Virus record (IMG/VR): IMGVR_UViG_3300032287_000691 | Span: 1 to 35,834 of that record | DNA length: 35,834 nucleotides | Source of the DNA: a virus | Strand: one strand, 5' to 3' | Shown: positions 7,814-35,834 of the stretch, one piece after another | Position numbering within the stretch: position 1 is the first letter of the stretch | Layout of the letters: each line of letters starts with the position of its first letter | The notes under the pieces: generated by a model | Seen by the model: only the letters and a program-made list of their open reading frames with translations | Database searches by the model: none | What the model was told of the DNA's origin: nothing | Position numbers and translations under genes: made by a program

Positions 7814-9361
7814 TTAACTAATCACGGCAAAAAATGGCAGGGGAGCTATCATTTCGTCATGGTCACGTATCTGATTCTCTAAATCAAAGTGATAGTCACC
7901 CAACTGCTGTAGCATACGTGTAACCAATAAACTAGCCATAATCAAGTCATCTGTATCGCCAATTTTAGCGGCATAACTGCCACCATGGGCTACAAATGCT
8001 TTCAATTCACTTATAAGACTACGACTATTTACAGTCATTTTCTTGCTTTCAACTAATGTCTTAAACTTAGCACAACTTGTTAGTTTACTCTTATTGGTTG
8101 TATTGAACCCTCTACGCCCTTTACCTGCTTCACTGATAAAGATACCCGGGATATTACTTTCCCCGTATTCATTTAATGATACAATAGCGGCTTCTCCGAT
8201 ACCATTACATTCAATACTGTAATAGATACTGTTGGGTTCGTTTGTATATTCTGCTATATATTTGTTAATTTGTGCTAATAGTTTAATCTGACTAGGAATG
8301 TCTGTTTTGTTATGTTTCCATTCACCTACTTGAGTAGTAGTATTTGCTTCAAATATTTGTATTGCGGCCGGGTCACCACCTGTACCAAGACTTGGATCTA
8401 GACCCACACAATAAATGTTACCCTTTTTAGGTTGTTGATACCAACGAACTTGTCCTATACGGCTGACAGGCTCTATGCCTTCCATTGCAATTAATGTGTT
8501 TGGATTAATCAATGTCTCATCTGCAATAATGAACTCACAACCAATTTCTCGGTTGAATCGATCCTCACCTAACTGTGACTTCATCTCAGCCGCCCACTTA
8601 TCATCTCTACCGGGCTGTTCACTCCAATATGCTCTATACGCTCTAAAACCATTAACACCTAATTCAGTAGTATTACCGAAGTCATCTTCAGTCTTGTTAG
8701 CACCTTTCCAGATATAAGCAAATTGATCCTCATCACTGTTTGGAGTACTTGTGATAATAGCTTTACCACCAGTTGATAATGTTGGTGTGATAGCTGTCCA
8801 AAATTCTTTAGCGATACTTGGTCTAACGAATGCAAACTCGTCCAAGTATAATAGTGTAATAGACATACCACGACCTGTATTTTCAGTTGTAGTAGCTGAA
8901 ACGATACGAGATCCATTCTCAAAGTCTAGTGAACCTTTGTTGTATGTTGTTACACCGGCTTTGATATAGTCAGGACAGTTCTCATATGCATAGCGTATTC
9001 GTTGCATAATCTCCTGAGCACCTGTATACTTGTGTGCCGCAACTAAGATAGTACTGTCTGGTACAAACATGGCATACCAGAGTAAGTATCCTGCGGCTGA
9101 AGTTGATTTACCAGATTGTCGTGGCATCAAACTGATTGAATAACGATAGTTGTGGTATGTTTCAATCAATCGTTTTTGATAGGGCCAAGGATGATAGACC
9201 ATACTACCTTTAGTAGGGTGTTGTATCATAAAAAAGTTATCCATAAAGTATAGATAACCTGTATCTGGGTCACAGCATTTAATAAAATCCTGTAGTTCTT
9301 TATCAGTTTTGAAAACTGTTTTAGTATAGGGGTTTTTTACTAGTGAAGGTGCATTACTCAT
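7814..9361 (-). CDS. terminase large subunit, gp17-type
   Basis: This 515-residue DNA packaging motor has Walker A PRQSGKST (80-87), Walker B LLYLDE (170-175), a coupling segment ITSTPNSD (203-210) and a C-terminal RNaseH-like nuclease domain with GLDPSLGTGGD (Asp 322), an acidic IECNG segment and GDTDDLIMA near the end. It cuts the concatemer and pumps DNA into the prohead through the portal. Length and motif order match T4 gp17. No small subunit is seen next to it. A late promoter box (9365-9375) sits 4-6 bases from its ATG, and there is no clear Shine-Dalgarno. Confidence 0.95.
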   Translation of the reverse strand: MSNAPSLVKNPYTKTVFKTDKELQDFIKCCDPDTGYLYFMDNFFMIQHPTKGSMVYHPWPYQKRLIETYHNYRYSISLMPRQSGKSTSAAGYLLWYAMFVPDSTILVAAHKYTGAQEIMQRIRYAYENCPDYIKAGVTTYNKGSLDFENGSRIVSATTTENTGRGMSITLLYLDEFAFVRPSIAKEFWTAITPTLSTGGKAIITSTPNSDEDQFAYIWKGANKTEDDFGNTTELGVNGFRAYRAYWSEQPGRDDKWAAEMKSQLGEDRFNREIGCEFIIADETLINPNTLIAMEGIEPVSRIGQVRWYQQPKKGNIYCVGLDPSLGTGGDPAAIQIFEANTTTQVGEWKHNKTDIPSQIKLLAQINKYIAEYTNEPNSIYYSIECNGIGEAAIVSLNEYGESNIPGIFISEAGKGRRGFNTTNKSKLTSCAKFKTLVESKKMTVNSRSLISELKAFVAHGGSYAAKIGDTDDLIMASLLVTRMLQQLGDYHFDLENQIRDHDEMIAPLPFFAVIS

Positions 9362-14137: not shown

Positions 14138-15385
14138 TTATTTATACAGAATTTTATATAACTCAGGATTTACTTCTTGTAATGATACATTTCTATGATT
14201 ATCAAATATTTCTGTAAATTTAGCAAATCTATCTAAATTATGTTCATAAGGTACATATTCTGTGCATTTAAGTTTCAATTCTTGCATCTTATCAAAAAAC
14301 CACTGATGCTGAAATTTACAATTATTGTCCATCCAATATTGAATCTTATCCCAACATTCTTTTTTGTAATCTAATGGTAAATATGTTATGTTTAATTGTT
14401 CCGGGTTATACAGAATAATAGGGGAAATATTTATTATAGTAGCATTGTTCATCCTATTAAAATTCTCTAGGTATTCAAACAGGTCAGTAATGTATCCTAA
14501 ATTTATATTTTGTATTACGGGTGTCACAGTTAAAGAAACATTTGATTTTTTATTTGATATCAATTTTTTAAGATTCTCATCAATCTGTTCCCATTTACTA
14601 GGATATCTAATATATTCTTGAATTGAACCTATCCCATCAATACTAGCAAAAAAAGTAACTTGTTTAAACTGACTAATAATATTTAAAAATTTATCTTGCA
14701 TATTAGTCATATTCGTATTTAATTTTAAGGTAATATTTTTTGCTTTATCTTGCTCAATAATATATTTTAAAATTTCATAATTTTTTTCGATTATCGATGG
14801 TTCTCCTCCCGTAACATAAAGTTCCTGTATATTATCAATTTGCGTTGATATATTGTTAAAAAATATATCCGTACTGTACCAATGATTAATATCAATAGGT
14901 TCTATTTTAATAAAGGATTCAATGTCAGTTCCTGTTTCTTTTAATTCAATTAATTCTTTTTCGTACTGAGTGGAATTTTCAGGACTACAACTTTTGCATT
15001 TTAAGTTACATAAATTACCAAATCGTAAATCAAAATACTCCACTGTCTCTTTTATTTCAACATCCTGTTTTGTTTTTTCTTTTAATAATTCTGACCATTT
15101 TGTATTATAATATGTTCTATAACTATTGTTTGATTTTTTTTCTGACTCATAACATCGATTACACCCATTGATAATTTTACCATCTAACATGTTTTTTCTT
15201 AAATCTTTTAAACTTTTAGAATTTATTATGTCTGATAAATTATCATATCCTAAGTTAAAAGGTACATTGTTTTGTTTATTAATTGTATCTAATGATATGC
15301 AACATGGTTTTACATCACCATTAGGTGATGTAGCAATATGCATCCAGGGTAATATACAAAAACTTTTATTATTTAAAATATCCAC
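14138..15385 (-). CDS. radical SAM protein with twitch/SPASM-like Cys motifs (415 aa)
   Basis: The radical SAM cluster motif is C126-x3-C130-x2-C133 (CNLKCKSC), followed by TGGEP (192-196), the SAM-binding segment. Extra Cys residues (C10, C28/C29, C75, C78) in an N-terminal FCILPWMHI...PNGDVKPCC region look like an auxiliary iron-sulfur site of the twitch type. Such proteins make radical modifications of peptides, sugars or other small molecules. It overlaps the aminotransferase gene by 17 bases, so it is read in the same cassette as the sugar genes. The substrate is unknown; a nucleotide-sugar or amino-sugar step is a guess from context. It is more AT-rich than the cassette genes upstream. 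Confidence 0.85.
   Translation of the reverse strand: MDILNNKSFCILPWMHIATSPNGDVKPCCISLDTINKQNNVPFNLGYDNLSDIINSKSLKDLRKNMLDGKIINGCNRCYESEKKSNNSYRTYYNTKWSELLKEKTKQDVEIKETVEYFDLRFGNLCNLKCKSCSPENSTQYEKELIELKETGTDIESFIKIEPIDINHWYSTDIFFNNISTQIDNIQELYVTGGEPSIIEKNYEILKYIIEQDKAKNITLKLNTNMTNMQDKFLNIISQFKQVTFFASIDGIGSIQEYIRYPSKWEQIDENLKKLISNKKSNVSLTVTPVIQNINLGYITDLFEYLENFNRMNNATIINISPIILYNPEQLNITYLPLDYKKECWDKIQYWMDNNCKFQHQWFFDKMQELKLKCTEYVPYEHNLDRFAKFTEIFDNHRNVSLQEVNPELYKILYK
14141..14148 (-). promoter_or_regulatory. TATAAATA box before the candidate i-spanin
   Basis: The exact T4 late core TATAAATA overlaps the last two codons and stop of the radical SAM gene, 10 bases before the ATG of the membrane coiled-coil gene. 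The Tyr-Lys-stop codons could also create it by chance. Confidence 0.4.
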
Positions 15386-16436
15386 AGACCTTGTCCTTTA
15401 TGTATTCTACTTCGTTGTCCATTAGTTCAGGATACATAGGTAAACTAAGCACACCGCGACTTAACATCACACTTGTACTTAGCATATCTGGTTTTGATAA
15501 ACTTTTTGCTGTAGGTAAATCACCTAAAACATATTCATAGTGAATCTTACTATCAATGCCATCAGTTAGTAAATGCGTATGCAAACTACTACGATCAGGT
15601 AAATACATTACAAACTTTTGATGTGCGTGAGGATCTTTTGTATCAGATAAACAAGTCAGTGATAAATCTCTGAATACGTCACACCAATACTTTGCTATTT
15701 CACTTCTACGCTTTTGCCACTCATCTATATACTTTACTCTGACTAATATTTGGGCACAATCTTGCTCACTCATCTTTGAATTAGTACCAACATCATGGAA
15801 GTAGGGTTTGTTGTTATCTCTATATTTTACTGCATATAGATATAGTTGTTCATTATTAGTTACGATTGCACCGCCGTTACCTGAGCTAGGTAAGTTCTTT
15901 GTAGGATCAAAACTGATTGACATGCCACTACCTACATCACCGTCTGATACTAACCAATGTTGTGCTCCGTCAACTATAACACCAAATGCATTTGAGTAAC
16001 TAGCATCAGGCCAGGGCTTGCGACCAGCAAAGCCCATTAAACAATCATATACTCCTGCACTAGAATGATTCATATCAATGATACCGTTCTTATCGGTATC
16101 AACTAAATCTACTTCCCAACCTGCAGTTAAGAATGCATTTAGTGTTGCTGGGTATGTTAGATTTGGGATACAGATTTTAGGATTACCATCCATGTTTTCT
16201 GTATGTTTAATCTTTTTCCATCGTGCAATAATCTCAAGTGCTTGTGTACCGCTATGTAAGGTGACAGCATACTTTGTTTTAGTACGATGTTTTAGCCATT
16301 CTTCAAACGAGCGGGTATAATGACCACCCACAAGTTGTCCGTCTTTAAGGGCACGGTGAGTTGCATCAAGCAACTCTTCACCGATGTTCTTATACTGTCT
16401 TGCTAGACCAAAATGGGGAATTACTAAGCCAACCAT
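15369..16436 (-). CDS. DegT/DnrJ/EryC1-family PLP aminotransferase (355 aa)
   Basis: The start at ATG 16436 (MVGLVIPHFG) is chosen over an in-frame TTG at 16448, which has poorer spacing. Fold-type I motifs are present: TLHSGTQALE (phosphate binding, about 59-68), VDGAQHW with the PLP-contacting Asp156, and SFDPTKNLPSSGNGGA with the Schiff-base Lys180. This family transfers an amino group onto keto sugars of nucleotide-sugar pathways. It sits between an NDP-sugar epimerase and a radical SAM protein with overlaps at both ends, so together they probably make a rare amino sugar for virion or host-surface glycan. The sugar itself cannot be read from the sequence. Confidence 0.88.
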   Translation of the reverse strand: MVGLVIPHFGLARQYKNIGEELLDATHRALKDGQLVGGHYTRSFEEWLKHRTKTKYAVTLHSGTQALEIIARWKKIKHTENMDGNPKICIPNLTYPATLNAFLTAGWEVDLVDTDKNGIIDMNHSSAGVYDCLMGFAGRKPWPDASYSNAFGVIVDGAQHWLVSDGDVGSGMSISFDPTKNLPSSGNGGAIVTNNEQLYLYAVKYRDNNKPYFHDVGTNSKMSEQDCAQILVRVKYIDEWQKRRSEIAKYWCDVFRDLSLTCLSDTKDPHAHQKFVMYLPDRSSLHTHLLTDGIDSKIHYEYVLGDLPTAKSLSKPDMLSTSVMLSRGVLSLPMYPELMDNEVEYIKDKVCGYFK

Positions 16437-17358
16437 AATATCTTTCAAAGCCTTCTTCTACATCTACCTTAGGATCATATCCAAAATCTCTACGAGCGGC
16501 ATCAATGTTTAATGCACCGCGACTTGGGAAGTCAGCGTCTTTATCTTTGACTTCAATACTACCTTTGCCTGCAATCTTAACTGCCAAGTTTGCGGCATCT
16601 AATAAACTACGACTATGGCTCTTTGTAATATTGTATGTTTTATTATTAGTGTTATTACTTAGTGCGGCAGCAACAATACCATCTGCGGCATCTTCTACAT
16701 ATGTAAAGTCTAGTGTTTCATTTGCACCATTAACTTTAAGTGTGCCTCCACGCATAGCAGTTAGCATAAACTTAGCAATAACACGATCCTCAACATCTAA
16801 TGGTCCATATACAGCACTAGGACGAATGATAGTATGACTGAAACAATTACGACGGCTATAGTCTTTAACAATATGCTCACCTGATAGTTTCATAATACCA
16901 TACTGACCTTGCGGTTTACAATTGTAATCTTCTGTTACATCATCAGTGAAGTCTCCATAGACCATTGAGCTACTGATATACAAGAACTTAGATACTTTAT
17001 GACTCTTGGCTGATTCACATAGATTCATCAGTCCTTCCATCATTGTTCTTGCACCTATTGCTGGATTAGCGTTAACAACTTTCTGCCGGGGAAAGCTAGC
17101 CATATGAATAATGATTGCAGGCTGATGTTTTTGTATCAGCCAATCAATACTATCTGCATTGCTTATATCAATATTGTATATTTGTTCTGTCTTAATTTTC
17201 TTAATGCGTTCATTCATTAAGTAATCTATTTCATCTTGCGGGATGATTCCATAAGTAGTGCAGGTGTCAGTAATGACAACATCATGTCCTAATGATTCTA
17301 GTTTACTAACTACGTGATGTCCGATAAGGCCGAGACCGCCTGTTACTAATATTTTCAT
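16390..17358 (-). CDS. NAD-dependent epimerase/dehydratase, NDP-sugar type (322 aa)
   Basis: The ATG at 17358 overlaps the stop of the upstream gene (ATGA) and starts the Rossmann fold directly: MKILVTGGLGLIGHHV has the GxxGxxG dinucleotide motif. The short-chain catalytic triad is visible as SSSMVYG (Ser) and YGIMKLSGE (Tyr-x3-Lys), followed by RPSAVYGP. This is the extended SDR family (GalE/RmlB-like). It should act on a nucleotide sugar, changing stereochemistry or removing water. The coupled aminotransferase suggests a keto-sugar pathway. Longer frames upstream run through the preceding gene and are rejected. Confidence 0.9.
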   Translation of the reverse strand: MKILVTGGLGLIGHHVVSKLESLGHDVVITDTCTTYGIIPQDEIDYLMNERIKKIKTEQIYNIDISNADSIDWLIQKHQPAIIIHMASFPRQKVVNANPAIGARTMMEGLMNLCESAKSHKVSKFLYISSSMVYGDFTDDVTEDYNCKPQGQYGIMKLSGEHIVKDYSRRNCFSHTIIRPSAVYGPLDVEDRVIAKFMLTAMRGGTLKVNGANETLDFTYVEDAADGIVAAALSNNTNNKTYNITKSHSRSLLDAANLAVKIAGKGSIEVKDKDADFPSRGALNIDAARRDFGYDPKVDVEEGFERYYGWLSNSPFWSSKTV

Positions 17359-17639
17359 TTGAATTTCAATTCGTAATATGTTATTTGTTCTGGTGTTAGT
17401 TCTGCTTTGATTGTATAGATATGTCCATATGAGGTATGGTCTATATGACGATACCAACTAGGTCTATCAAATGCATTATCCATTACCCATCTGCCGGCTT
17501 CGGTTTGTTGCCATTTCCAAATAGGTTCTGCTACATACAAATCAGGATCTTCAACATCCCCCATCTTAATTGTATGGACTAGATATTCAGATGTAATAAC
17601 TTCGTTACCATCAAGATTTTTACGAACTTTATATTTCAT
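17355..17639 (-). CDS. hypothetical protein (94 aa)
   Basis: The ATG at 17639 overlaps the stop of the upstream oxygenase (ATGA). The protein is small, beta-rich and rich in Trp and Tyr (EPIWKWQQTEAGRWV, FDRPSWYRHIDH), with a hydrophilic C-terminus that ends in the epimerase start. I do not recognise it. Strict overlaps on both sides mean it is translated with the cassette, so it probably serves the same pathway or was carried in with it. Confidence 0.65.
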   Translation of the reverse strand: MKYKVRKNLDGNEVITSEYLVHTIKMGDVEDPDLYVAEPIWKWQQTEAGRWVMDNAFDRPSWYRHIDHTSYGHIYTIKAELTPEQITYYELKFK

Positions 17640-24027: not shown

Positions 24028-25131
24028 TTAGTTACCTGCTTCAACAATGTACTTGCCGTACTTCTTGTGAAAGTCATCAAAGTGTTTCAACTGACTTGGC
24101 TCAATCGGCAACTTGTATGTTTTCAATGCAATCTTAGCACCCATCACAACCAACTCAGTCTCAAAGTTAGTCATAATATAACTAAAGAAGTTATCAGCCA
24201 TTTCGTGGAACTTCTTAGAATCAACTTTCTTAGATTCAAGTGCATCACGCAATTCATAGCACATTGAAATTGTCAATGAGTACATTGCCGAAATTTCTTT
24301 CACAGACAAGTCTTTCACTTTACCTGAAAGAATTTCGCTAGGCTCGGGCATCTTGCCTGCAATCTTGCGGTGAGCCATAAACTTAACAGCAAGACCTTCA
24401 CCGACTGCACCTGACACTAAGTTAAACATTGTATCAGTATCAATGTTATCCTCGTCATTCAACAAGTCAGAGACAAAGCACCATGAACGGGGTGTAGCAA
24501 ACGCACGTGAGCTAGATTTACTATCAAATTCGTACAAATCTTGTTTAGCAAATGACAAGTAACCCACAACGTCTTTGTGGATAGCTTTGTCAACAGCCCA
24601 GTTCTGCCATGACGTAAAGTCGGCTCGCATTTCCAAGTGCAAGAAACGATTAGCGAGGGGCATCGGCATACGATATGTAACACCTTTATCGCTATCACGA
24701 TTACCTGCCGCAACAATAACAACGTTATCGGGCAAGACATACTTACCTACACGGCGATTCAAAATCAACTGATAGCCAGCTGCCTGTACTGCAGGTGATG
24801 CACTGTTCATCTCATCTAAGAATAGAACAACGATCGGGTACTTGCTTGCAAGTTCTTCATCAGGCAAGTCAACAGGTGCCGCCCAATCCATCTTAGCAAT
24901 ATCTTTATTGAAATATGGGATACCACGAATATCTGTGGGCTCCATTTGGGCCATACGCAAGTCAATCATATAGCCGCCGAGTTCATCAGTAACTTCGGCA
25001 ACAACTTCAGATTTACCGATACCGGGAGGTCCCCACAAGAATACGGGGCGTTTTACTTTAAAAGCTGTCAACAATGCTTTGCGTGTTTGTACGCTAGTGA
25101 TTGTCAGATTGTCAGAAATTTGCGATGCCAT
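24028..25131 (-). CDS. MoxR-type AAA+ ATPase (367 aa)
   Basis: Walker A is GPPGIGKS (34-41), Walker B VVLFLDEMNSA (101-111) and sensor-like residues follow in VIVAAGNRDSD; DLRMAQMEPTDIRGIP lies between them, the usual MoxR/RavA layout. The C-terminal ~120 residues are a helical lid and tail. MoxR ATPases act as chaperones that open or activate partner proteins with VWA domains, and such a partner lies downstream (22510-23778). It has AAAGGAG before the ATG and a promoter 40 bases upstream, so it is probably expressed early. Its phage target is unknown. Confidence 0.9.
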   Translation of the reverse strand: MASQISDNLTITSVQTRKALLTAFKVKRPVFLWGPPGIGKSEVVAEVTDELGGYMIDLRMAQMEPTDIRGIPYFNKDIAKMDWAAPVDLPDEELASKYPIVVLFLDEMNSASPAVQAAGYQLILNRRVGKYVLPDNVVIVAAGNRDSDKGVTYRMPMPLANRFLHLEMRADFTSWQNWAVDKAIHKDVVGYLSFAKQDLYEFDSKSSSRAFATPRSWCFVSDLLNDEDNIDTDTMFNLVSGAVGEGLAVKFMAHRKIAGKMPEPSEILSGKVKDLSVKEISAMYSLTISMCYELRDALESKKVDSKKFHEMADNFFSYIMTNFETELVVMGAKIALKTYKLPIEPSQLKHFDDFHKKYGKYIVEAGN

Positions 25132-26035: not shown

Positions 26036-26290
26036 TTACTTCATTAAATTGGCCATCAATACTAATTTTTCTAAGTGGTTGATTGCTGTATTGATTTCGG
26101 CTACTCTGTCATCAAGCATATTGTATTTGCCCGTTCTACGCAAATTTACTTCAAGTTTGCTTAATTCAGATACCATTTTGTCAATGTTTTTGTGCATACG
26201 ATGTAAGTCTGGATTGTATCCAATGCCATTCATTTGACTACTTAAGTCAATGCTAACTTGATTCCAATCGATTGCACGTTCTATTTTCAT
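26036..26290 (-). CDS. hypothetical coiled-coil protein (84 aa)
   Basis: The protein is helical throughout: MKIERAIDWNQVSIDLSSQM, then a heptad-like stretch (NIDKMVSELSKLEVNLRRTG) and a second helix (VAEINTAINHLEKLVLMANL). It probably forms a small coiled-coil dimer. The ATG at 26290 has no Shine-Dalgarno, and the promoter 7 bases upstream puts the transcript start on the A of the ATG. No family is recognised. Confidence 0.6.
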   Translation of the reverse strand: MKIERAIDWNQVSIDLSSQMNGIGYNPDLHRMHKNIDKMVSELSKLEVNLRRTGKYNMLDDRVAEINTAINHLEKLVLMANLMK

Positions 26291-26326: not shown

Positions 26327-26350
26327 AAAAAAGGCTCCTTAGAGCCTTTT
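26327..26350 (-). terminator. intrinsic terminator after the porin
   Basis: Nine-pair stem AAAAGGCTC/GAGCCTTTT with loop TAAG and a following T-run on the minus strand. It shares the GGCTC/GAGCC core with the tmRNA terminator. A second small stem (CTAATCTC/GAGATTA) overlaps the porin stop codon. Confidence 0.85.
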
Positions 26351-26369: not shown

Positions 26370-27251
26370 TTAGAAGCGGTGAATTAGACCAACTCCAACT
26401 TGTGTTACATCGGCTGAAGCACCAACTTTGTCAATGTTGCGATAAGCAACTTCTAAGTCAGTACGCTTGCTGAAAGCATAACCAACGCCTACTGAGTAAG
26501 CTGTAATATCTTTATTTGTTTTACCATAACTTGCTTTAGCAGTATATGGACCAAATGCTCTTGCGGCACCGATCAAATCGCCTTTGCTGTTTACAAGACC
26601 TTTGTCATCACTATGTGTGTATGTCAAACGTGTACCTGCAACTTTAGTACTAAAACCAACTACTGTGCTAGTTTCTCTACCTTGTTCAAATTTAGCGGCT
26701 GTAATACCAACACCTGCAATTGAACCACTTGCACCATAGCTAGTTGCATCTTGACCAGTTGCACCTTGTGTGCGGTCAAAAGAAACTGTTAGACCTTTGA
26801 AAGGAGTAACTGTTGCGAATACACCATTGCTCACACGCAGACCACGTAAGTTGTGAACATCACCTGCAACAGAACCATATGTTGTTCCGAATACATCGTT
26901 GCTAGTGATTGCTAAAAACTCACTGTGAACATTGCGGCCGATATCAACTGAAACATTTTTAGATGCTACACCAATTGTACCTTGGCGATCACCTAATTGT
27001 GTGCCACTACCATTAATAGTGTTTGCACCAATGCTTGTTTCAACAACAACACGTGCCTTTAATCCACCACCTAAATTTTCTGTAGCAGAAATTGCGATGT
27101 TGTTTGTTGGCTCGCCGGCGATGCTTGTATTGCGAACAGCACCAGTTTTAGTGTTGTCTGCAAACTGAGCAACTTTACCAGAGATTGATACTTGTGCTGA
27201 TGCAACCATTGTAGTTGCGGCCAATAGTGTCGCTAATGCGATTTTTTTCAT
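26370..27251 (-). CDS. outer-membrane porin, Burkholderiales type (293 aa)
   Basis: It has a classic signal peptide (MKKIALATLLAATTMVASAQ, cleavage after ASA) and begins VSISGKVAQFAD, the usual first strand of the Gram-negative porin family of Burkholderiales. The rest has short alternating beta strands with Gly and polar turns, the ENLGGGLKARVVVETSI strand pair, a GDVHNLRGLRVSNG segment and a C-terminal Phe (VGVGLIHRF), the sorting signal for barrel assembly. At 293 residues it is shorter than many such porins (330-400), so loops may be reduced. A good AAAGGA lies before the ATG, and it is insulated by its own terminator. Encoded in a phage, it could replace or mask the host receptor porin or alter host uptake; phage PA-2 porin Lc is a precedent. 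Confidence 0.9.
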   Translation of the reverse strand: MKKIALATLLAATTMVASAQVSISGKVAQFADNTKTGAVRNTSIAGEPTNNIAISATENLGGGLKARVVVETSIGANTINGSGTQLGDRQGTIGVASKNVSVDIGRNVHSEFLAITSNDVFGTTYGSVAGDVHNLRGLRVSNGVFATVTPFKGLTVSFDRTQGATGQDATSYGASGSIAGVGITAAKFEQGRETSTVVGFSTKVAGTRLTYTHSDDKGLVNSKGDLIGAARAFGPYTAKASYGKTNKDITAYSVGVGYAFSKRTDLEVAYRNIDKVGASADVTQVGVGLIHRF

Positions 27252-27386
27252 AAGATTTTCCTTTAAAAATAAACCTGTCTTTCAACAAGTTAGACTAATA
27301 TTTATTGAGTTAAATACAGCCCAATAAAATAGTTCATGTAGCAAAGTATACTATTTGTTTACACAATAAGTAAGTCTATTTGGGTA

Positions 27387-28448: not shown

Positions 28449-29560
28449 ACACTTTGGGTAAAGTTTTTAATCACGTTGTGAAATTCGTCTATTCCTGTTT
28501 TACCCAATGAACAAAAGTGATTAAAATTATAATCAACTATCTCTTGTATCTTATCTGCATTATCAGGAATTTTTGCTACTAGTTCTTTTGCCACTAATAC
28601 TGTTTTTTCAACATGCGAATAGTCTCTATTCTCATACGTGTTGTAACTTTCATCAATGAATTCATTGAAAGTTTTAAAGCCAAATGATTTAACTAAGTCT
28701 AGTTGACCTGACCCTGCTTGAATTATAAATGGGTGATTGTTGACTATTGACCTATATATTTTTTCTGTCATAAGATATGGATACGAACTTCTGTCTACGT
28801 CAAATGTTTCACATATATAACTTACACTAGAATTTTTAAATATGTTTGGGTCGAACGGCCAGCCTGTGCTTGAGCTGATTCCTTCATTAGAATCTGTAAT
28901 ACGTGTATGGTCAGCAGGTCCTAAATATTTTAAAATGGTATTATAATAGTCAATGTTGTTATATTCCGGGTGATTATTCATCATACCTTGAATATCTTCT
29001 GGATATGCATTGATTCCCAATACTGCATCTTTCAACAAATCATGCTTATAAAAATAATATGATGCTAGAAAACGAGCAAATCTTGTTTTTAACTTACCTA
29101 TGAGCAAATTCAATCCATTTTTTCTATCATTAACTTTTGTACTATCGAACGGATGACCATGCATAATACACTTACAATAAGTGTCTAATAAATAATAATC
29201 CAGTGCATGTGTTTTGTATGGGGTTGAAATTGGTATTCCACATAAAATATCGGACAAATTGTGTAGCAATAATATGTCAGATTCATTTACTCTTTTAAGT
29301 TCCGGTATACGGTTGTGCATCTCATTGATACTATTAATATCAAGTGTTTCCCAAGATACATCAATGATTACTCTTGTAGGAAGATTGTTATCTAATCTAG
29401 CACATAATACTTCACGCATATCCTCATAGTATGAAAATATATTGATGTAAATAACTAGAGGGTCAGATTCATTTTTAGCAATAGTACTATTACTAATTAA
29501 GAGGTCCGATGGCATGAATAATGACGCACTCTGGTTTATATGTATCGGTGAAAATATCAT
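28445..29560 (-). CDS. GT10 fucosyltransferase-like glycosyltransferase (371 aa)
   Basis: The C-terminal third carries YPYLMTEKIYRSIVNNHPFI followed by an IQAGSGQLDLVKSFGFKTF segment and DESYNTYENRD, the pattern of phage proteins related to GT10/fucosyltransferases (TEK.Y...  ..HPF... ... GFKTF ... DESYD). The N-terminal two thirds hold no clear motif. It starts right after the giant repeat protein (29557) with a four-base overlap (ATGA at 29557-29560), so the two are translated together; they may act on or form part of a glycosylated virion or surface structure. Sugar and acceptor unknown. Confidence 0.65.
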   Translation of the reverse strand: MIFSPIHINQSASLFMPSDLLISNSTIAKNESDPLVIYINIFSYYEDMREVLCARLDNNLPTRVIIDVSWETLDINSINEMHNRIPELKRVNESDILLLHNLSDILCGIPISTPYKTHALDYYLLDTYCKCIMHGHPFDSTKVNDRKNGLNLLIGKLKTRFARFLASYYFYKHDLLKDAVLGINAYPEDIQGMMNNHPEYNNIDYYNTILKYLGPADHTRITDSNEGISSSTGWPFDPNIFKNSSVSYICETFDVDRSSYPYLMTEKIYRSIVNNHPFIIQAGSGQLDLVKSFGFKTFNEFIDESYNTYENRDYSHVEKTVLVAKELVAKIPDNADKIQEIVDYNFNHFCSLGKTGIDEFHNVIKNFTQSV

Positions 29561-30250
29561 TTGTATTTGTTATTAAAATATTCTTTTAACCACGGCCAAT
29601 CATACGATAATTTTAATTTCTCAAAATCACCATTGACTGATTCATAGTATTCTACCGCATGTTGAGCACCATCGGTTGAGTAATCAGAGAACTTGCCCAT
29701 ACCTGTTGTTAACCAAAACTCTAAACGTTTCTTACTAACTTCATCATCGTTGGCACGTAACTTCAATGCTTCACGGAAACTAGTACGCCATGTACTCCAT
29801 TCATCTGTGTTAAAGTTAGCAGTACCGGAAACGATCTCAACAATCTCATGTTCGTCATCCATTGTAAAGTCAAGACCCTTACCTTCATTAGCTAATGTGA
29901 GTTTCTTGTTATACGCAATCATAGCCATGTGACCGTATACTAATCCGTTAACTGGATTCTTAGCATGGAATACATAGTGCTTAGGTAACTGCATTCTATC
30001 TGGTTGCCAGTTCCAATCAAACTTAGGACTGACTTTCAACTTAGCAAACACAGTAAACATCCATGGTGTATTACTAGCTTCTGCTGCCGCATGATAGGCC
30101 GCTACACGACCATTAACACCGTCGACACGTACAACCCGATTAGGTAGTCCCTGTGTTGTCTTTACTAGATGCTCATAGTTTTCGTCTGCACCAGTCTCGC
30201 CATTACTTAAGAACACGATATCCATTGGAGTAGACTTAGCTAATATCTTG
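29557..30250 (-). other. GT-A-like C-terminal domain of the giant repeat protein
   Basis: The last 230 residues show a strand-loop pattern of nucleotide-sugar glycosyltransferases: MDIVFLSNGETGAD (first strand), VDGVNGRVAAYHAAAEASNTPWMFTVFAKLKV (helix and acceptor of a DXD-like site, no clear DXD), FDWNWQPDR and GLVYGHMAMIAYNKKL. Two earlier segments (IDMFFVDRGNSESQQRF, TVYIDHGNKPVPEN) start in the same way. This suggests that the repeat arose from the second half of such a domain. Activity is doubtful because the DXD metal site is not visible. Confidence 0.5.
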
Positions 30251-33200
30251 TTAGTTTGAATGTATGGATAATCGTACAACTCACGCTTGACATGATCTTT
30301 TACTTCTTTAGGTACAATGATTCTTGTACCACCAACACTAGTAACCTGAATAGCTTTTGTTTCTTTGCTCCAAAGATTCATTGGCTCTGTGTCAATTGCT
30401 TTTATTTCTTGATTGTCAATCATTTGAAACGTAGCATAAGGGAAATTAAAATCAGTATTAATACTAGAGACATGTGTATCACCTTCAGTAATAATAGTCG
30501 GTGCGGGTAATCGCTTCACTCGCATGTGTTGGTTGTAGTTAACTTTGATGTCTTCCAATTGTTCAACACTATCAATTAACTCACGTAGCTTATTCACATT
30601 GACCAAGAACGTGTCACCAAACTTTTGTTTATCACTAGGGAATACATGTAGTTGGTCACGTGCAAATGGATCACAAATGTATGTGAAGTCAAAACCATTG
30701 TAATCACAAATAGAACTAGTAACCCAAACATAATGTTCTTTCTTGTTGGGTAACTTTTCTAATAACTTCTTAAAGGTTTTGAGATAACTTTCATCATATT
30801 CAATGACCAATGTGTTCTCTGGAACTGGTTTGTTTCCATGGTCAATATATACTGTATCATACAATACATTTGTGGCAGTTGCTCTACGATCCTTAACAAA
30901 ATTAATATTACTCAAATGCTCAATAATTTTAACATATTTTGTGTCATCAGCAAAGTTTTCACGGTTAATCATAAACGTTGTTCCCCAGTGACTCCACTGA
31001 GTTCCAAATACATGAACCATCTTCATTTGCCAAGGATTAGGATAGTAGTTGAAATCAAATCCAGTATAATCTAATTCACTGTTTAGTATCCAGCATAAGT
31101 TACTACTTGCACGATTAATACAACGATTGATAGTGTCAACCCAACTATTTAAATAACGTGTCTTTTGTATTGTAGGATGTTGTAGTTTTAACAACTCAAA
31201 TCTTTGTTGTGATTCACTATTTCCTCTATCTACAAAGAACATGTCAATCTTTGTTTTAACTTCTAATGTTTTATCTTGTACATAGTTAACTTCTTTTTGA
31301 CCTTGACTATAAGTAAAGCCGTTAACAAAGTATGTTTGTGTGTTGATATTATCTCTAGTACCAAACGCATGTACATACATTGATTGCTCAATATCTGGTC
31401 TCCAATCAAAATCAAACTCACTATAATCCAAGTCAGGGTTTAACGCCCAGAACATTTCATTTGGATGCTTTGCAACCAAATCATCTAGCGTAGTTTCGAT
31501 GAGATATCTAGGGAAGATTTCTTCTTCAGCTTCTTCTAGTTCTACACGTTCTAAATAAATAACCTCACCGTTATTAGTGCTAGGCTCATAACGAGGGCCA
31601 TCATTCTGATTAGCAAGAGTACCAAATTGATAGATATAATCAGGTGCAGTAGCATCTGGATGCCAGCTAAAATCAAATAAACTTACATCAACACCTTCTG
31701 GGATGACCCAGTTATCTCTACTAGGAAGTATAACTGCTTTGATAGTATCGACAAACTTAGTTTCTGTTGCACCAGGTACAATATATTTAGGACCATTTGT
31801 CTTTTGCCATTGAGTACCAAATTGATAAATGTAGGGCGGGTCTTTAGGATTAGGTTTCCAACTAAAATCAAACGTAAGAATATCAATTCGCTTAGGCACA
31901 TCCCAATTAGACATGTCTTTACCTAATCTAGCAACTGGATTATGTATGTACTTAATCTGTGTAGCACCGTGTACTCTATACTCAACTGTTGGCATTATTT
32001 CTGGTGGATATTGATTATTACCAAACACATATATGTAGGGTTCCTCAGTCTTATCAGGATGCCATGAGTAGTCAAAATTAGCAACTTTGATATCATCTAA
32101 TATCGTAAAACCTATAGGTGATGGTAGTCTATTTCCCTTTATAATACTATTATCAATGTATTTTATCAAAGAGTCTTTGTGCGAGCCGGGTGTTACATAG
32201 CTAGGTCCACCTGTCTTTTGCCATTGAGTACCAAATTGATAGATATATGCTGATTCTGTATCATCAGGGTGCCAAGAATAGTCAATGCTATTTTCATCAA
32301 TATCTTTAGGCACAATCCAATTACTACGATTAGGCAACTTTTTAGCTTTTAACACACGTGTGTCAATATACTTAATAGGTGACATATCGTCAGTACCGGG
32401 CGTAATATATTTAGGTCCACCTGTCTTTTGCCATTGAGTACCAAATTGATAAATGTATGGCTGATCTTCTTCGTATGGATGCCAACTAAAGTCAAACGCA
32501 TTTACATCAATATCATCAGGTATAATCCAATTCTTCTTATTTGGCGCTGCCTTTGCTACTGGGGAATCAACATACTTAACTTCAGTAGCACCCTGTACTA
32601 AGTATCGAGGTCCGCCGGTCAATGCCCATTGAGTTCCGAATATGTATATATATGGTTTTTCTGTAGAGTCTGGATGCCAACTGAAATCAAACTCAGAAAT
32701 ATCTAAGTCATCTGGGATATCCCAAGATTTCATTGTAGTCTTAATTGCTACTGCTTTATTTTCTTCTACATATTTTACTTCTGTTGCACCATCGATTACG
32801 TAACGAGGTCCGCCGGTCTTTTGCCATTGTGTGCCAAACTCATAGATATAAAGAGGATCTTTAGGATTTGGTTTCCAACTAAAATCAAATTGTTCTTTAT
32901 CAATATTTTTAGGTATTTCCCAATTAGTCCTATCGTCTCCTAATGTAGCAACAATATCATTTATATATTTAATTTGTGTGGCACCAGGAACCGCATACTC
33001 AATCGTAGGCATAATTTCTGCTGGGTATTGATTGTTACCAAACACATATATGTAGGGATCTTCTGTAGTATCTGGATGCCATGTGTAATCAAAATCTTTA
33101 ATCTGATAATTATTCAATATAGAGAATCCACGTTTAGAAGGCAAACGTTTTGATTTTAAAATACGTGTATCAATGTATTTGATTGGACTATTATTGTGAA

Positions 33201-35834
33201 CACCGGGTGTAATATACCTTGGACCACCTGTCTTTTGCCATTGAGTACCAAATTGATAGATGTATGGCTCATCCTCAATATATGGGTGCCATGAATAGTC
33301 AATACTACTGTCATCAATGTATGCAGGAACTTCCCAGTTTGTTTTGTCCGGTAGTGCTTTTGCAACAGGTTCTTCCATATACTTTGTTTCAGTAGCACCT
33401 TCTACAGTGTAGATAGGGCCACCACTCAATGCCCATTGAGTAGCAAAGTGATAGATATAGGGAGGACTAGTGCTATCTGGATGCCAACTGAAATCAAAGT
33501 CAGCATCTATGTTTTTAGGTAATGTCCAGTTTTCTTTTGTAGCCAATGCCTTTGCTTTAGACAAGTTGATAAACTTGACTTCCGATGCCCCTGCAACTTC
33601 GTAGCGAGGTCCGCCTGTCTTTTGCCATTGAGTACCAAACTCATATATAAATGCAGGATCACGTGGGTGAGGGTGCCAACTAAAATCAAAATCAGTAGTA
33701 TCAATATTATCAGGTATAGCCCATGCAGATTTTATAGGTAAAGTCTTAGCTACCGGAAAGTTTACATACTTAGTTTCTGTAGCGCCATCAACTTGATATA
33801 CTGGTCCACCTTCTGGTTGCCATATTGTTGTAAATTCATAGTTGAATGGATCATCAGTGCTGTCTGGATGCCAACTAAAATCAAACGATGATTCATCAAT
33901 ATATTCAGGAATATACCAATTTAACTTGTTTGATTTTTTTATTGATTTGATGGTATCAACATATTTTGTTTCCGTTGCCCCTTCTACAATATATTTAGGT
34001 CCGCCTGTCTTTTGCCATTGAGTTCCAAACTCATATATGTAAGGTTGTTCTGTATTATCAGGGTGCCAACTGTAATCAAATATTTTATGTTCAACATCAG
34101 CAGGAGAAATCCAATTCTTTTTACTAGGTAATGCTACTACTTTTTGAAAGTCAACATATTTTACTTCAGTGGCACCTGGCATAACATATCTTGGTCCGCC
34201 TGTCTTTTGCCATTGAGTTCCAAATTGCCAAATGAGGTCTGCTTCTAATGGATCAGGTCTCCAGGTAAAATCAAAACCAGTTGTATCTAAATTATCAGGA
34301 ATAACCCAACGATCCCATTCAGGAGTTACTTCAACTAACTCGTCCATGTACTTCTTTTCAGTAGCACCGTCAACTTGATACTCAACAGTAGATTTAATCT
34401 TACCGTCAATGTATGAGTTACCCCAAACGTAGATATATGCAGGATCTTTTGGATTTGGCTTCCAACTAAAGTCAAACTTATCTTCATTAATAGGTTGAAT
34501 GATATGCCAGTTAGTTCTATCTGAATCTAAGGTAGCAACTATATCATTTACATATTTTATTTGAGTTGCACCTGGTACAGCATACTCAATTGTAGGCATT
34601 ACTTCAGCAGGATACAGATTATTACCGAACACATAGATATATGGTTCTTCTGTAGTATCTGGATGCCATGTATAATCAAAATCTTTAATTTTTAAATTAT
34701 CTAATATAGCAAAGCCTTTTTTACTAGATAAACGTTTTGATTTTAGAATACGTGTATCAATATATTTGATAGCACTATTTGCATGAACCCCAGGAGTCTT
34801 ATATACATGGCCACCTGTCTTTTGCCATTGAGTACCAAATTGATAGATATACGGTTCGTCTTGAGCATACGGGTGCCATGAATAATCAAAGCTATCTACA
34901 TCGACAAATGCAGGCACTTCCCAATTAGTTTTATCCGGTAGTGCCTTAGCAATTAGGTCTTCAACGTATTTGATTTCAGTAGCACCATCAACGTTATATA
35001 TAGGTCCGCCACTTAATGCCCACTGTGTAGGAAATACGTATGTATAGGGAGGACTTGTACCGTCCGGGTGCCAGCTAAAGTCAAAGTCTGTAATATCGAT
35101 GTTTGCAGGGATAGTCCATTTTTCTTTACTAGGTAATGTTTTTACTTTTTGTAAATCGACAAATTTAACTTCTGTTGAATTAGGTACAACATAGCGAGGT
35201 CCGCCGGTCTTTTGATGTTGCGTGCCGAATTCATAAGTGAATAAAGGATCACGAGGATGAGGATGCCATGTGTAATCAAAACCTGTATCATCAATGTTGT
35301 TAGGTATGATCCATTTAGACATGATCAGTTTAGTTTTAGCTACGAGTGAAGTAACATACTTAGTACTAGTAGAGCCCTCAATCTGATATACTGGACCACC
35401 TTCAGATTGCCAGACTGTCGTAAATTCATAATTGAACGGGTCATCTGTACTATCAGGGTGCCAACTAAAATCAAACGATAATTCATCAATATATTCAGGA
35501 ATATACCAATTTAACTTGTTTGATTTTTTTATTGCTTTTTGAGTATCAATATATTTTGTTTCAGTTGCACCTTCTACTAGATACATCGGTCCACCTGTCT
35601 TTTGCCATTGTGTGCCGAATTCATAGATATATGGAGTTTCTGTGCTATCTGGATGCCAGCTATAGTCAAACATTTTATGTTCAATGTCAGCCGGAGAAAC
35701 CCAATTCTTTTTATTAGGTAATGCTACTGCTTTTTGAAAGTTAATATACTTAGTTTCAGTTGCTCCGGGCATTACATAACAAGGTCCACCTGTCTTTTGC
35801 CATTGTGTACCGAACTGCCATAATAGAGGTGCTT
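29557..35834 (-). CDS. giant FDFSWHPD-repeat protein with glycosyltransferase-like C-terminus, 5' end beyond window
   Basis: The frame is open from the right edge to the stop at 29557, at least 2,090 residues; an ATG at 35772 lies inside a repeat and is not the start. About 25 modules of ~65-80 residues are seen, each built on VPGATE.KYVD ... W.IP..ID ... FDFSWHPD.T.PYIY.FGTQWQKTGG. The last modules diverge (FDFDWRPDIEQ, FDFNYYPNPWQ, FDFTYICDPFA), and the final ~330 residues (from about 1740) resemble a GT-A domain (MDIVFLSNGETGADENYEHL, RVAAYHAAAEASNTPWMF, FDWNWQPDR). Proteins with FDFSWHPD repeats recur in T4-like aquatic phages as unassigned large proteins. A surface or virion role is possible; the start is out of view. 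Confidence 0.75.
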   Translation of the reverse strand, partial: APLLWQFGTQWQKTGGPCYVMPGATETKYINFQKAVALPNKKNWVSPADIEHKMFDYSWHPDSTETPYIYEFGTQWQKTGGPMYLVEGATETKYIDTQKAIKKSNKLNWYIPEYIDELSFDFSWHPDSTDDPFNYEFTTVWQSEGGPVYQIEGSTSTKYVTSLVAKTKLIMSKWIIPNNIDDTGFDYTWHPHPRDPLFTYEFGTQHQKTGGPRYVVPNSTEVKFVDLQKVKTLPSKEKWTIPANIDITDFDFSWHPDGTSPPYTYVFPTQWALSGGPIYNVDGATEIKYVEDLIAKALPDKTNWEVPAFVDVDSFDYSWHPYAQDEPYIYQFGTQWQKTGGHVYKTPGVHANSAIKYIDTRILKSKRLSSKKGFAILDNLKIKDFDYTWHPDTTEEPYIYVFGNNLYPAEVMPTIEYAVPGATQIKYVNDIVATLDSDRTNWHIIQPINEDKFDFSWKPNPKDPAYIYVWGNSYIDGKIKSTVEYQVDGATEKKYMDELVEVTPEWDRWVIPDNLDTTGFDFTWRPDPLEADLIWQFGTQWQKTGGPRYVMPGATEVKYVDFQKVVALPSKKNWISPADVEHKIFDYSWHPDNTEQPYIYEFGTQWQKTGGPKYIVEGATETKYVDTIKSIKKSNKLNWYIPEYIDESSFDFSWHPDSTDDPFNYEFTTIWQPEGGPVYQVDGATETKYVNFPVAKTLPIKSAWAIPDNIDTTDFDFSWHPHPRDPAFIYEFGTQWQKTGGPRYEVAGASEVKFINLSKAKALATKENWTLPKNIDADFDFSWHPDSTSPPYIYHFATQWALSGGPIYTVEGATETKYMEEPVAKALPDKTNWEVPAYIDDSSIDYSWHPYIEDEPYIYQFGTQWQKTGGPRYITPGVHNNSPIKYIDTRILKSKRLPSKRGFSILNNYQIKDFDYTWHPDTTEDPYIYVFGNNQYPAEIMPTIEYAVPGATQIKYINDIVATLGDDRTNWEIPKNIDKEQFDFSWKPNPKDPLYIYEFGTQWQKTGGPRYVIDGATEVKYVEENKAVAIKTTMKSWDIPDDLDISEFDFSWHPDSTEKPYIYIFGTQWALTGGPRYLVQGATEVKYVDSPVAKAAPNKKNWIIPDDIDVNAFDFSWHPYEEDQPYIYQFGTQWQKTGGPKYITPGTDDMSPIKYIDTRVLKAKKLPNRSNWIVPKDIDENSIDYSWHPDDTESAYIYQFGTQWQKTGGPSYVTPGSHKDSLIKYIDNSIIKGNRLPSPIGFTILDDIKVANFDYSWHPDKTEEPYIYVFGNNQYPPEIMPTVEYRVHGATQIKYIHNPVARLGKDMSNWDVPKRIDILTFDFSWKPNPKDPPYIYQFGTQWQKTNGPKYIVPGATETKFVDTIKAVILPSRDNWVIPEGVDVSLFDFSWHPDATAPDYIYQFGTLANQNDGPRYEPSTNNGEVIYLERVELEEAEEEIFPRYLIETTLDDLVAKHPNEMFWALNPDLDYSEFDFDWRPDIEQSMYVHAFGTRDNINTQTYFVNGFTYSQGQKEVNYVQDKTLEVKTKIDMFFVDRGNSESQQRFELLKLQHPTIQKTRYLNSWVDTINRCINRASSNLCWILNSELDYTGFDFNYYPNPWQMKMVHVFGTQWSHWGTTFMINRENFADDTKYVKIIEHLSNINFVKDRRATATNVLYDTVYIDHGNKPVPENTLVIEYDESYLKTFKKLLEKLPNKKEHYVWVTSSICDYNGFDFTYICDPFARDQLHVFPSDKQKFGDTFLVNVNKLRELIDSVEQLEDIKVNYNQHMRVKRLPAPTIITEGDTHVSSINTDFNFPYATFQMIDNQEIKAIDTEPMNLWSKETKAIQVTSVGGTRIIVPKEVKDHVKRELYDYPYIQTNKILAKSTPMDIVFLSNGETGADENYEHLVKTTQGLPNRVVRVDGVNGRVAAYHAAAEASNTPWMFTVFAKLKVSPKFDWNWQPDRMQLPKHYVFHAKNPVNGLVYGHMAMIAYNKKLTLANEGKGLDFTMDDEHEIVEIVSGTANFNTDEWSTWRTSFREALKLRANDDEVSKKRLEFWLTTGMGKFSDYSTDGAQHAVEYYESVNGDFEKLKLSYDWPWLKEYFNNKYK
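32800..35834. repeat. higher-order tandem repeat of eight modules, period ~1,590 bp
   Basis: Modules 1-7 from the right edge (WHPDSTETPYIYEF, WHPDSTDDPFNYEF, WHPHPRDP, WHPDGTSPPY, WHPYAQDEP, WHPDTTEEPYIYVFGNN, WKPNPKDP) recur in the same order as modules 9-15, and the partial module at the edge matches module 8. One landmark in module 1 lies near 35656 and in module 9 near 34066, 1,590 bases apart (530 codons). A third copy starts near 32800 but is partial and altered. All shifts are multiples of three, so the frame is kept. Confidence 0.8.

Follow-up and report, generated by a model that had tools for sequence, protein, structure and literature searches.

The window, by which we mean the whole 35.8-kb virus record analysed here, carries a porin gene set between phage genes, and the question that this locus raises is what an outer-membrane channel would do for a phage. 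The original prediction described a complete porin with signal peptide and C-terminal phenylalanine, preceded by its own Shine-Dalgarno sequence and followed by a terminator, and this description was borne out by the following features:

26370..27251, minus strand: porin gene, an intact open reading frame of 293 amino acid residues with an ATG start, composed of a signal peptide (residues ~1-19) and a 16-strand barrel with the constriction loop L3 (residues ~109-138).
27259..27264, minus strand: Shine-Dalgarno sequence AAAGGA, 7 nt before the porin ATG; TAAAGGAAA is kept in the relatives.
26329..26350, minus strand: symmetrical terminator-like hairpin 3' of the porin gene, listed by the scanner for the plus strand only.

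The N-terminal sequence, MKKIALATLLAATTMVASA ahead of QVS, is a signal peptide of the typical kind, the C-terminus reads GLIHRF, ending in the terminal Phe, and the hairpin, when read on the minus strand, is followed by TTTTTTGTTG. The Pfam profile Porin_4 (PF13609) matches residues 7-274 with an E-value of 1.2e-20 and 75 bits, against a gathering cut-off of 27, and the features of this family, namely the signal peptide, the 16 strands, the inserted L3 and the C-terminal Phe, are all present in the sequence and in an AlphaFold2 model. By profile and fold, the protein is a member of the Gram-negative porins, and it would be expected to form a trimeric open channel in the outer membrane. The dN/dS ratio is ~0.18 in comparison with locus L011 and 0.27 in comparison with L015, which indicates purifying selection, and therefore the reading frame is not a product of chance.

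The position of the porin among phage genes, also part of the original prediction, was confirmed by the neighbouring genes of the virus record:

7814..9361, minus strand: large terminase subunit, which marks the phage lineage.
22510..23778, minus strand: DUF2201 metallopeptidase/VWA protein (PF13203, PF09967), a backbone gene.
24028..25131, minus strand: AAA ATPase (phrog_1297), a conserved backbone gene that lies outside the porin unit and serves as anchor.
26036..26290, minus strand: F2, an 84-residue gene kept as the downstream edge of the cargo locus in terminase-clade relatives.

The terminase and the metallopeptidase/VWA protein are closest to those of jumbo myophages such as PA5oct, Paride and Phosso, with ~40-51% identity, and the terminase is 83-97% identical in ten porin-carrying contigs and 57% identical in an eleventh. 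Using the AAA ATPase as anchor, 80 related loci were retrieved, and F2 was found in 26 of the 39 mapped porin loci. Elsewhere in the window, a Radical SAM/SPASM protein is encoded at 14138-15385 (minus strand) with a GC content of 25%, versus 37% for the record, adjoining DegT aminotransferase and NAD-epimerase genes (15369-17457); it looks like a recent import, perhaps for the modification of a surface sugar or peptide. The region 29557-35772 (minus strand) encodes a 2071-residue protein with many repeats of ~70 residues (W-F-D-F-S-W-H-P-D type), also present in other members of the clade.

Relatives of the porin occur in more than 40 IMG/VR contigs, the largest of which have 524,565, 352,012 and 348,701 bp: a first scan gave nine loci (61-85% identity), an alignment-based scan 32, and the scan of AAA-gene neighbourhoods a further 13 contigs. 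A single copy is present in each of the 17 contigs tested for this. A search of INPHARED with the window porin found nothing at an E-value of 0.01, and the sole match there to the clade-B porin of L036 is a stretch of 58 residues in an unannotated faecal fragment of 10 kb; in PHROGs no family matches the porin. Two restricted genome scans with short patterns found no relatives, though hosts outside this sample may hold a cellular sister clade. In a maximum-likelihood tree, whose cellular side consists of ten plasmid-borne porins only, 24 of the 25 phage porins group together (100/100) on a long stem, apart from the sampled Burkholderiales porins. The porin therefore belongs to a phage family and is not a stray host gene. 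The exception is the 335-residue porin of L060, which nests among the Burkholderiales porins and is a second acquisition, of host type. The betaproteobacterial flavour noted in the original prediction was recovered. The plasmid porins nearest to the phage family are nearly all from Burkholderiales, which is only a hint at the host of the phage. A structural role in virions, which the original prediction had named as speaking against itself, was seen in none of the homologues: PHROG comparison placed no porin homologue in a virion family, and the homologues are outer-membrane proteins with signal peptides. Our literature search, which covered few subscription journals, found neither the phrase 'phage-encoded porin' nor a paper on this porin family, and porins are not mentioned in the Limnohabitans phage paper or in the soil-phage phosphorus paper.

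The AlphaFold2 model, built with 33 phage homologues, is a 16-strand barrel (pLDDT 83.5, pTM 0.77). Its top match among solved structures is Omp32 of Comamonas/Delftia acidovorans (PDB 1e54, 2fgq), described as an 'anion-selective porin' (Z 29.4, rmsd 2.0, 269 residues aligned); the malate complex of Omp32 shares the top rank, and BpsOmp38 and PorB differ by no more than ~1 Z unit. Omp32 and the window protein are both of the betaproteobacterial porin type and share the fold over 269-270 residues, but their sequences are only 21% identical, and the phage-coded protein has much shorter exposed loops. Arg38, Arg75 and Arg133 of Omp32 form a basic cluster that we take to line the constriction. 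Two of these three eyelet positions are kept in the phage porin, Arg75 as Arg89 and Arg133 as Arg139, both invariant in the 26 distinct phage homologues aligned, whereas the counterpart of Arg38 is Asn in the window porin and Arg in clade B. On the predicted inward face of the strands, a crude charge count gave ten Lys/Arg and ten Asp/Glu residues, that is, a neutral face. The phage porin may work like Omp32, with anion selectivity as a putative trait. Three viral entries of BFVD (A0A6J5L4P1, A0A6J5LP82 and A0A8S5S2G8), on none of which we found a paper, are likewise porin-type barrels from viromes; the two OmpC-type entries are 14-16% identical to the window protein and the OprO/P entry 12%.

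The comparison of loops sets the phage family apart from cellular porins. With 293 residues, the window protein is shorter than the ten sampled Burkholderiales porins (317-401 residues), as had been predicted, and the difference is found mainly on the outside: exposed loops amount to 39-48 residues in the phage porins, in all three lineages, versus 58-140 in the ten cellular porins, with unchanged periplasmic turns. The whole family thus looks shaved on its outer surface; the host-type porin of L060 has longer exposed loops (70 residues). The expectation that the surface loops are altered was correct, in the sense that they were pared down and not exchanged for another set. Within the barrel, L3 is the most conserved stretch, with an entropy of 0.37 versus 0.90 for the remaining mature protein (clade A, permutation p 0.0002), and the exposed loops vary more than L3.

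Upstream of the Shine-Dalgarno sequence, two further elements were identified:

27286..27304, minus strand: porin-specific leader TAAATATTAGTCTAACTTG with a TAAATA element, resembling a T4-type late promoter.
27273..27290, minus strand: leader hairpin ACTTG...CAGGT, with 98% of cells paired and weak covariation.

With at most two mismatches allowed, the motif TAAATATTAGTCTANCCTG was found once per genome in 17 of 18 porin carriers, in every case immediately before the porin gene; six contigs that have no PF13609 porin above the cut-off all lack it. The leader also precedes the L060 porin, which was acquired separately, and the divergent porin type of L085. It is absent from a separate group of relatives (L007, L008, L022-L024, L035, L037 and L038), whose porins have a different setting, next to other phage genes. 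We rejected the hairpin as a proven RNA element, since the covariation is too weak. The TAAATA element is conserved. Of the 11 ATAAATA sites on the coding strand, eight are found no more than 60 nt ahead of an ORF start (binomial 1e-7), a figure that still includes the AT-rich bias of intergenic regions, and their total count is no higher than the Markov expectation; a role of TAAATA as late promoter element is only suggestive. A TTACTT-17-TATACT pair, noticed by eye at 27345-27373, is absent from the scanner list.

The porin, though under purifying selection, is far more divergent than several neighbouring genes. In comparison with L034, identity is 92% for the AAA gene and 45% for the porin, and in comparison with L016 the values are 87% and 73%; therefore, the porin and the backbone have different histories. 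Between L019 and L016, the flanking proteins are 99-100% identical, whereas the porin genes share 48-77% identity in their first 375 nt and 96-100% in the remainder, from which it follows that the porin gene was swapped, whole or in part, between phages. The shared leader and the shared downstream F2 would allow recombination to exchange porins with phage control retained.

The window porin and those of its nearest relatives stand alone, and no uptake gene was found beside them. Other relatives provide the porin with the company of transport genes, as pstS, SBP_bac_3 and SDF genes adjoin the porin. In L036, the order is SBP_bac_3, SDF symporter, an unknown membrane protein, a racemase (these four at L036:4527-7913) and the porin; the racemase passes the NCBIfam cut-off for cysteate racemase, and the SDF protein is of the dicarboxylate/amino-acid symporter type. 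Similar clusters are present in L018, L025-L028 and L039, where structural-like genes separate the cluster from the porin. A pstS gene lies near the porin in L056, L066, L094, L137 and L140, scoring above the NCBIfam equivalog cut-offs where tested, and a calcineurin-like phosphoesterase gene in L036, L056, L085, L137 and L140. The pstS and phosphoesterase genes lie nearer to the porin than random placement would give (Fisher p 0.003); their co-presence with the porin is not significant (10/25 versus 4/26, p 0.064). The phosphoesterase may be PlcP-like, NCBIfam giving only sub-threshold LpxH-like scores. Phosphoesterase loci (L056:1310-2176, L148:2542-3387, L151:2578-3474 and others) often also contain a glycosyltransferase gene and a Pho box, possibly as a set for the salvage of lipid phosphate, and contig G017 (524,565 bp) has two copies of the PlcP-like gene (82183-82947 and 184146-184970), resulting from duplication or from an assembly join. 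Among 51 contigs, eight of the 12 exact Pho boxes lie within 130 nt upstream of a pstS or phosphoesterase gene; a reversed control pattern is about as frequent overall, so that the evidence is one of position and not of count. Before the window porin no Pho box was found, and Pho control of this gene itself was rejected; auxiliary uptake genes do not always carry such a box.

Relatives without a PF13609 porin carry other envelope genes at the same locus: small outer-membrane proteins in L074 (together with pstS), L079, L084 and L127, and TctC in L086. The former are outer-membrane-like proteins of 181-202 residues (L074:2143-2691, L079:1302-1850, L084:3667-4212 and L127:3884-4489), possibly half-size barrels, and that of L084 weakly matches the C-terminal half of Porin_4; the latter (L086:4288-5202) is a periplasmic receptor of the TctC type (PF03401). 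In L145 (contig G034) desaturase-like and rubrerythrin-like genes, identified by eye, flank a small outer-membrane protein. Away from the porin locus, L147 (G037:62457-64763, minus strand) encodes a phosphate porin of the OprO/P type (PF07396, E-value 5e-43) directly downstream of pstS, the two apparently forming one operon.

Taking these observations together, we consider it probable that the porin is an auxiliary outer-membrane channel for nutrient uptake, trimmed of its surface loops; this reading is favoured because a conserved pore is combined with a stripped exterior and with the company of uptake genes. During infection, a compact porin with 16 strands and an Omp32-like fold would be expressed from the phage leader, and the signal peptide would direct its export and subsequent insertion into the host outer membrane. 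There it would keep or raise the permeability to small nutrients, probably anions (phosphate, dicarboxylates or amino acids), at a time when host porin synthesis has likely stopped while several hundred kb of phage genome have to be synthesised. With its loops pared, the porin would retain the pore and leave little for other phages to hold. The porin would then be the exchangeable outer-membrane item of a cargo locus for envelope uptake, which in relatives also includes binding proteins of the periplasm and a symporter of the inner membrane. A changed uptake by the infected cell, which the original prediction offered as a second option, thereby gains real support from the uptake neighbours in relatives, the conserved L3 and the Omp32-like fold. 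Against the nutrient channel count the solitary position of the window porin, its lack of a Pho box, the neutral crude charge and the non-significant co-presence with pstS or the phosphoesterase; fast divergence and mosaic structure, moreover, also fit an arms race over surface proteins.

In the option that the original prediction placed first, receptor replacement or superinfection exclusion, the phage porin would replace a host porin that serves related phages as receptor and, without the recognised loops, would render the infected cell invisible to competitors, in the manner of the Lc porin of the lambdoid phage PA-2. Lc is a near relative of enterobacterial OmpC/OmpF, is encoded by a temperate phage and is tied to receptor exclusion. 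Lc and the window protein are both phage-coded 16-strand porins, but the family described here comes from a different branch of porins; its loops are trimmed, it is carried by large jumbo-type phages and it keeps the company of uptake genes. The short exposed loops of all three lineages, combined with periplasmic turns of full length, the variability of these loops relative to L3, and the faster divergence and recombination of the porin in comparison with its neighbours are what this explanation would lead one to expect. Nevertheless, a mere mask need not hold L3 nearly fixed, the uptake genes and Pho boxes of the same locus are left unexplained, the longer-looped L060 porin is found at this locus behind the same leader, and masking would also need the removal or dilution of the host porin, for which we have no evidence. 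We therefore regard receptor replacement as unlikely to be the main role, and its Lc-like form found no direct support, the loops being pared and not swapped; the lack of loops could confer it as an added advantage, and could also stop the porin from serving as a phage receptor itself.

A compact barrel with its own leader would likewise suit a bulk membrane protein that keeps the outer membrane stable over a long infection or lets osmolytes escape and has no specific part in nutrition, and the small outer-membrane proteins of porin-less relatives agree with this; the conservation of L3 and the uptake-gene neighbours point to transport, and we judge such envelope maintenance improbable. That the porin is a passenger, recently and accidentally imported from a host and without function for the phage, could be suspected from its patchy presence in the wider clade, where 13 of 50 further contigs have a match above the cut-off. 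This reading is already contradicted by the purifying selection, the occurrence in more than 40 phage contigs, the dedicated leader kept across porin types and the deep phage clade, and we give it hardly any credence.

Two known systems help to place the nutrient channel that we favour. Cyanophage-type pstS is an auxiliary gene under the control of host PhoB (PMC10976474). Phage PstS and the porin are alike as nutrient-uptake cargo, and pstS with Pho boxes adjoins the porin in relatives, but PstS is periplasmic, whereas the porin belongs to the outer membrane and itself lacks a Pho box. OprO/OprP (PF07396) perform the job that we propose for the phage porin, but are a separate family, with no match in the window record and present only in the related contig G037. 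Tentatively, and at a confidence short of an even chance, we suggest that jumbo phages carry an exchangeable island for envelope uptake that may span the whole host envelope, with a loop-trimmed porin behind a dedicated leader, periplasmic PstS, SBP_bac_3 and TctC proteins, an inner-membrane symporter and PhoB-controlled genes for phosphate salvage, and in which the porin would be selected to feed the cell yet evade recognition by competing phages.

The effects of phages on nutrient uptake are mostly discussed in terms of periplasmic binding proteins such as PstS, and this porin family would show that viruses also act on passage through the outer membrane. With this family, nature provides porins that have lost their outer loops but kept the pore, which makes it testable whether porin loops serve transport or the surface and its receptors, and the occurrence of one leader before unrelated porin types offers a handle on how phages swap surface genes.
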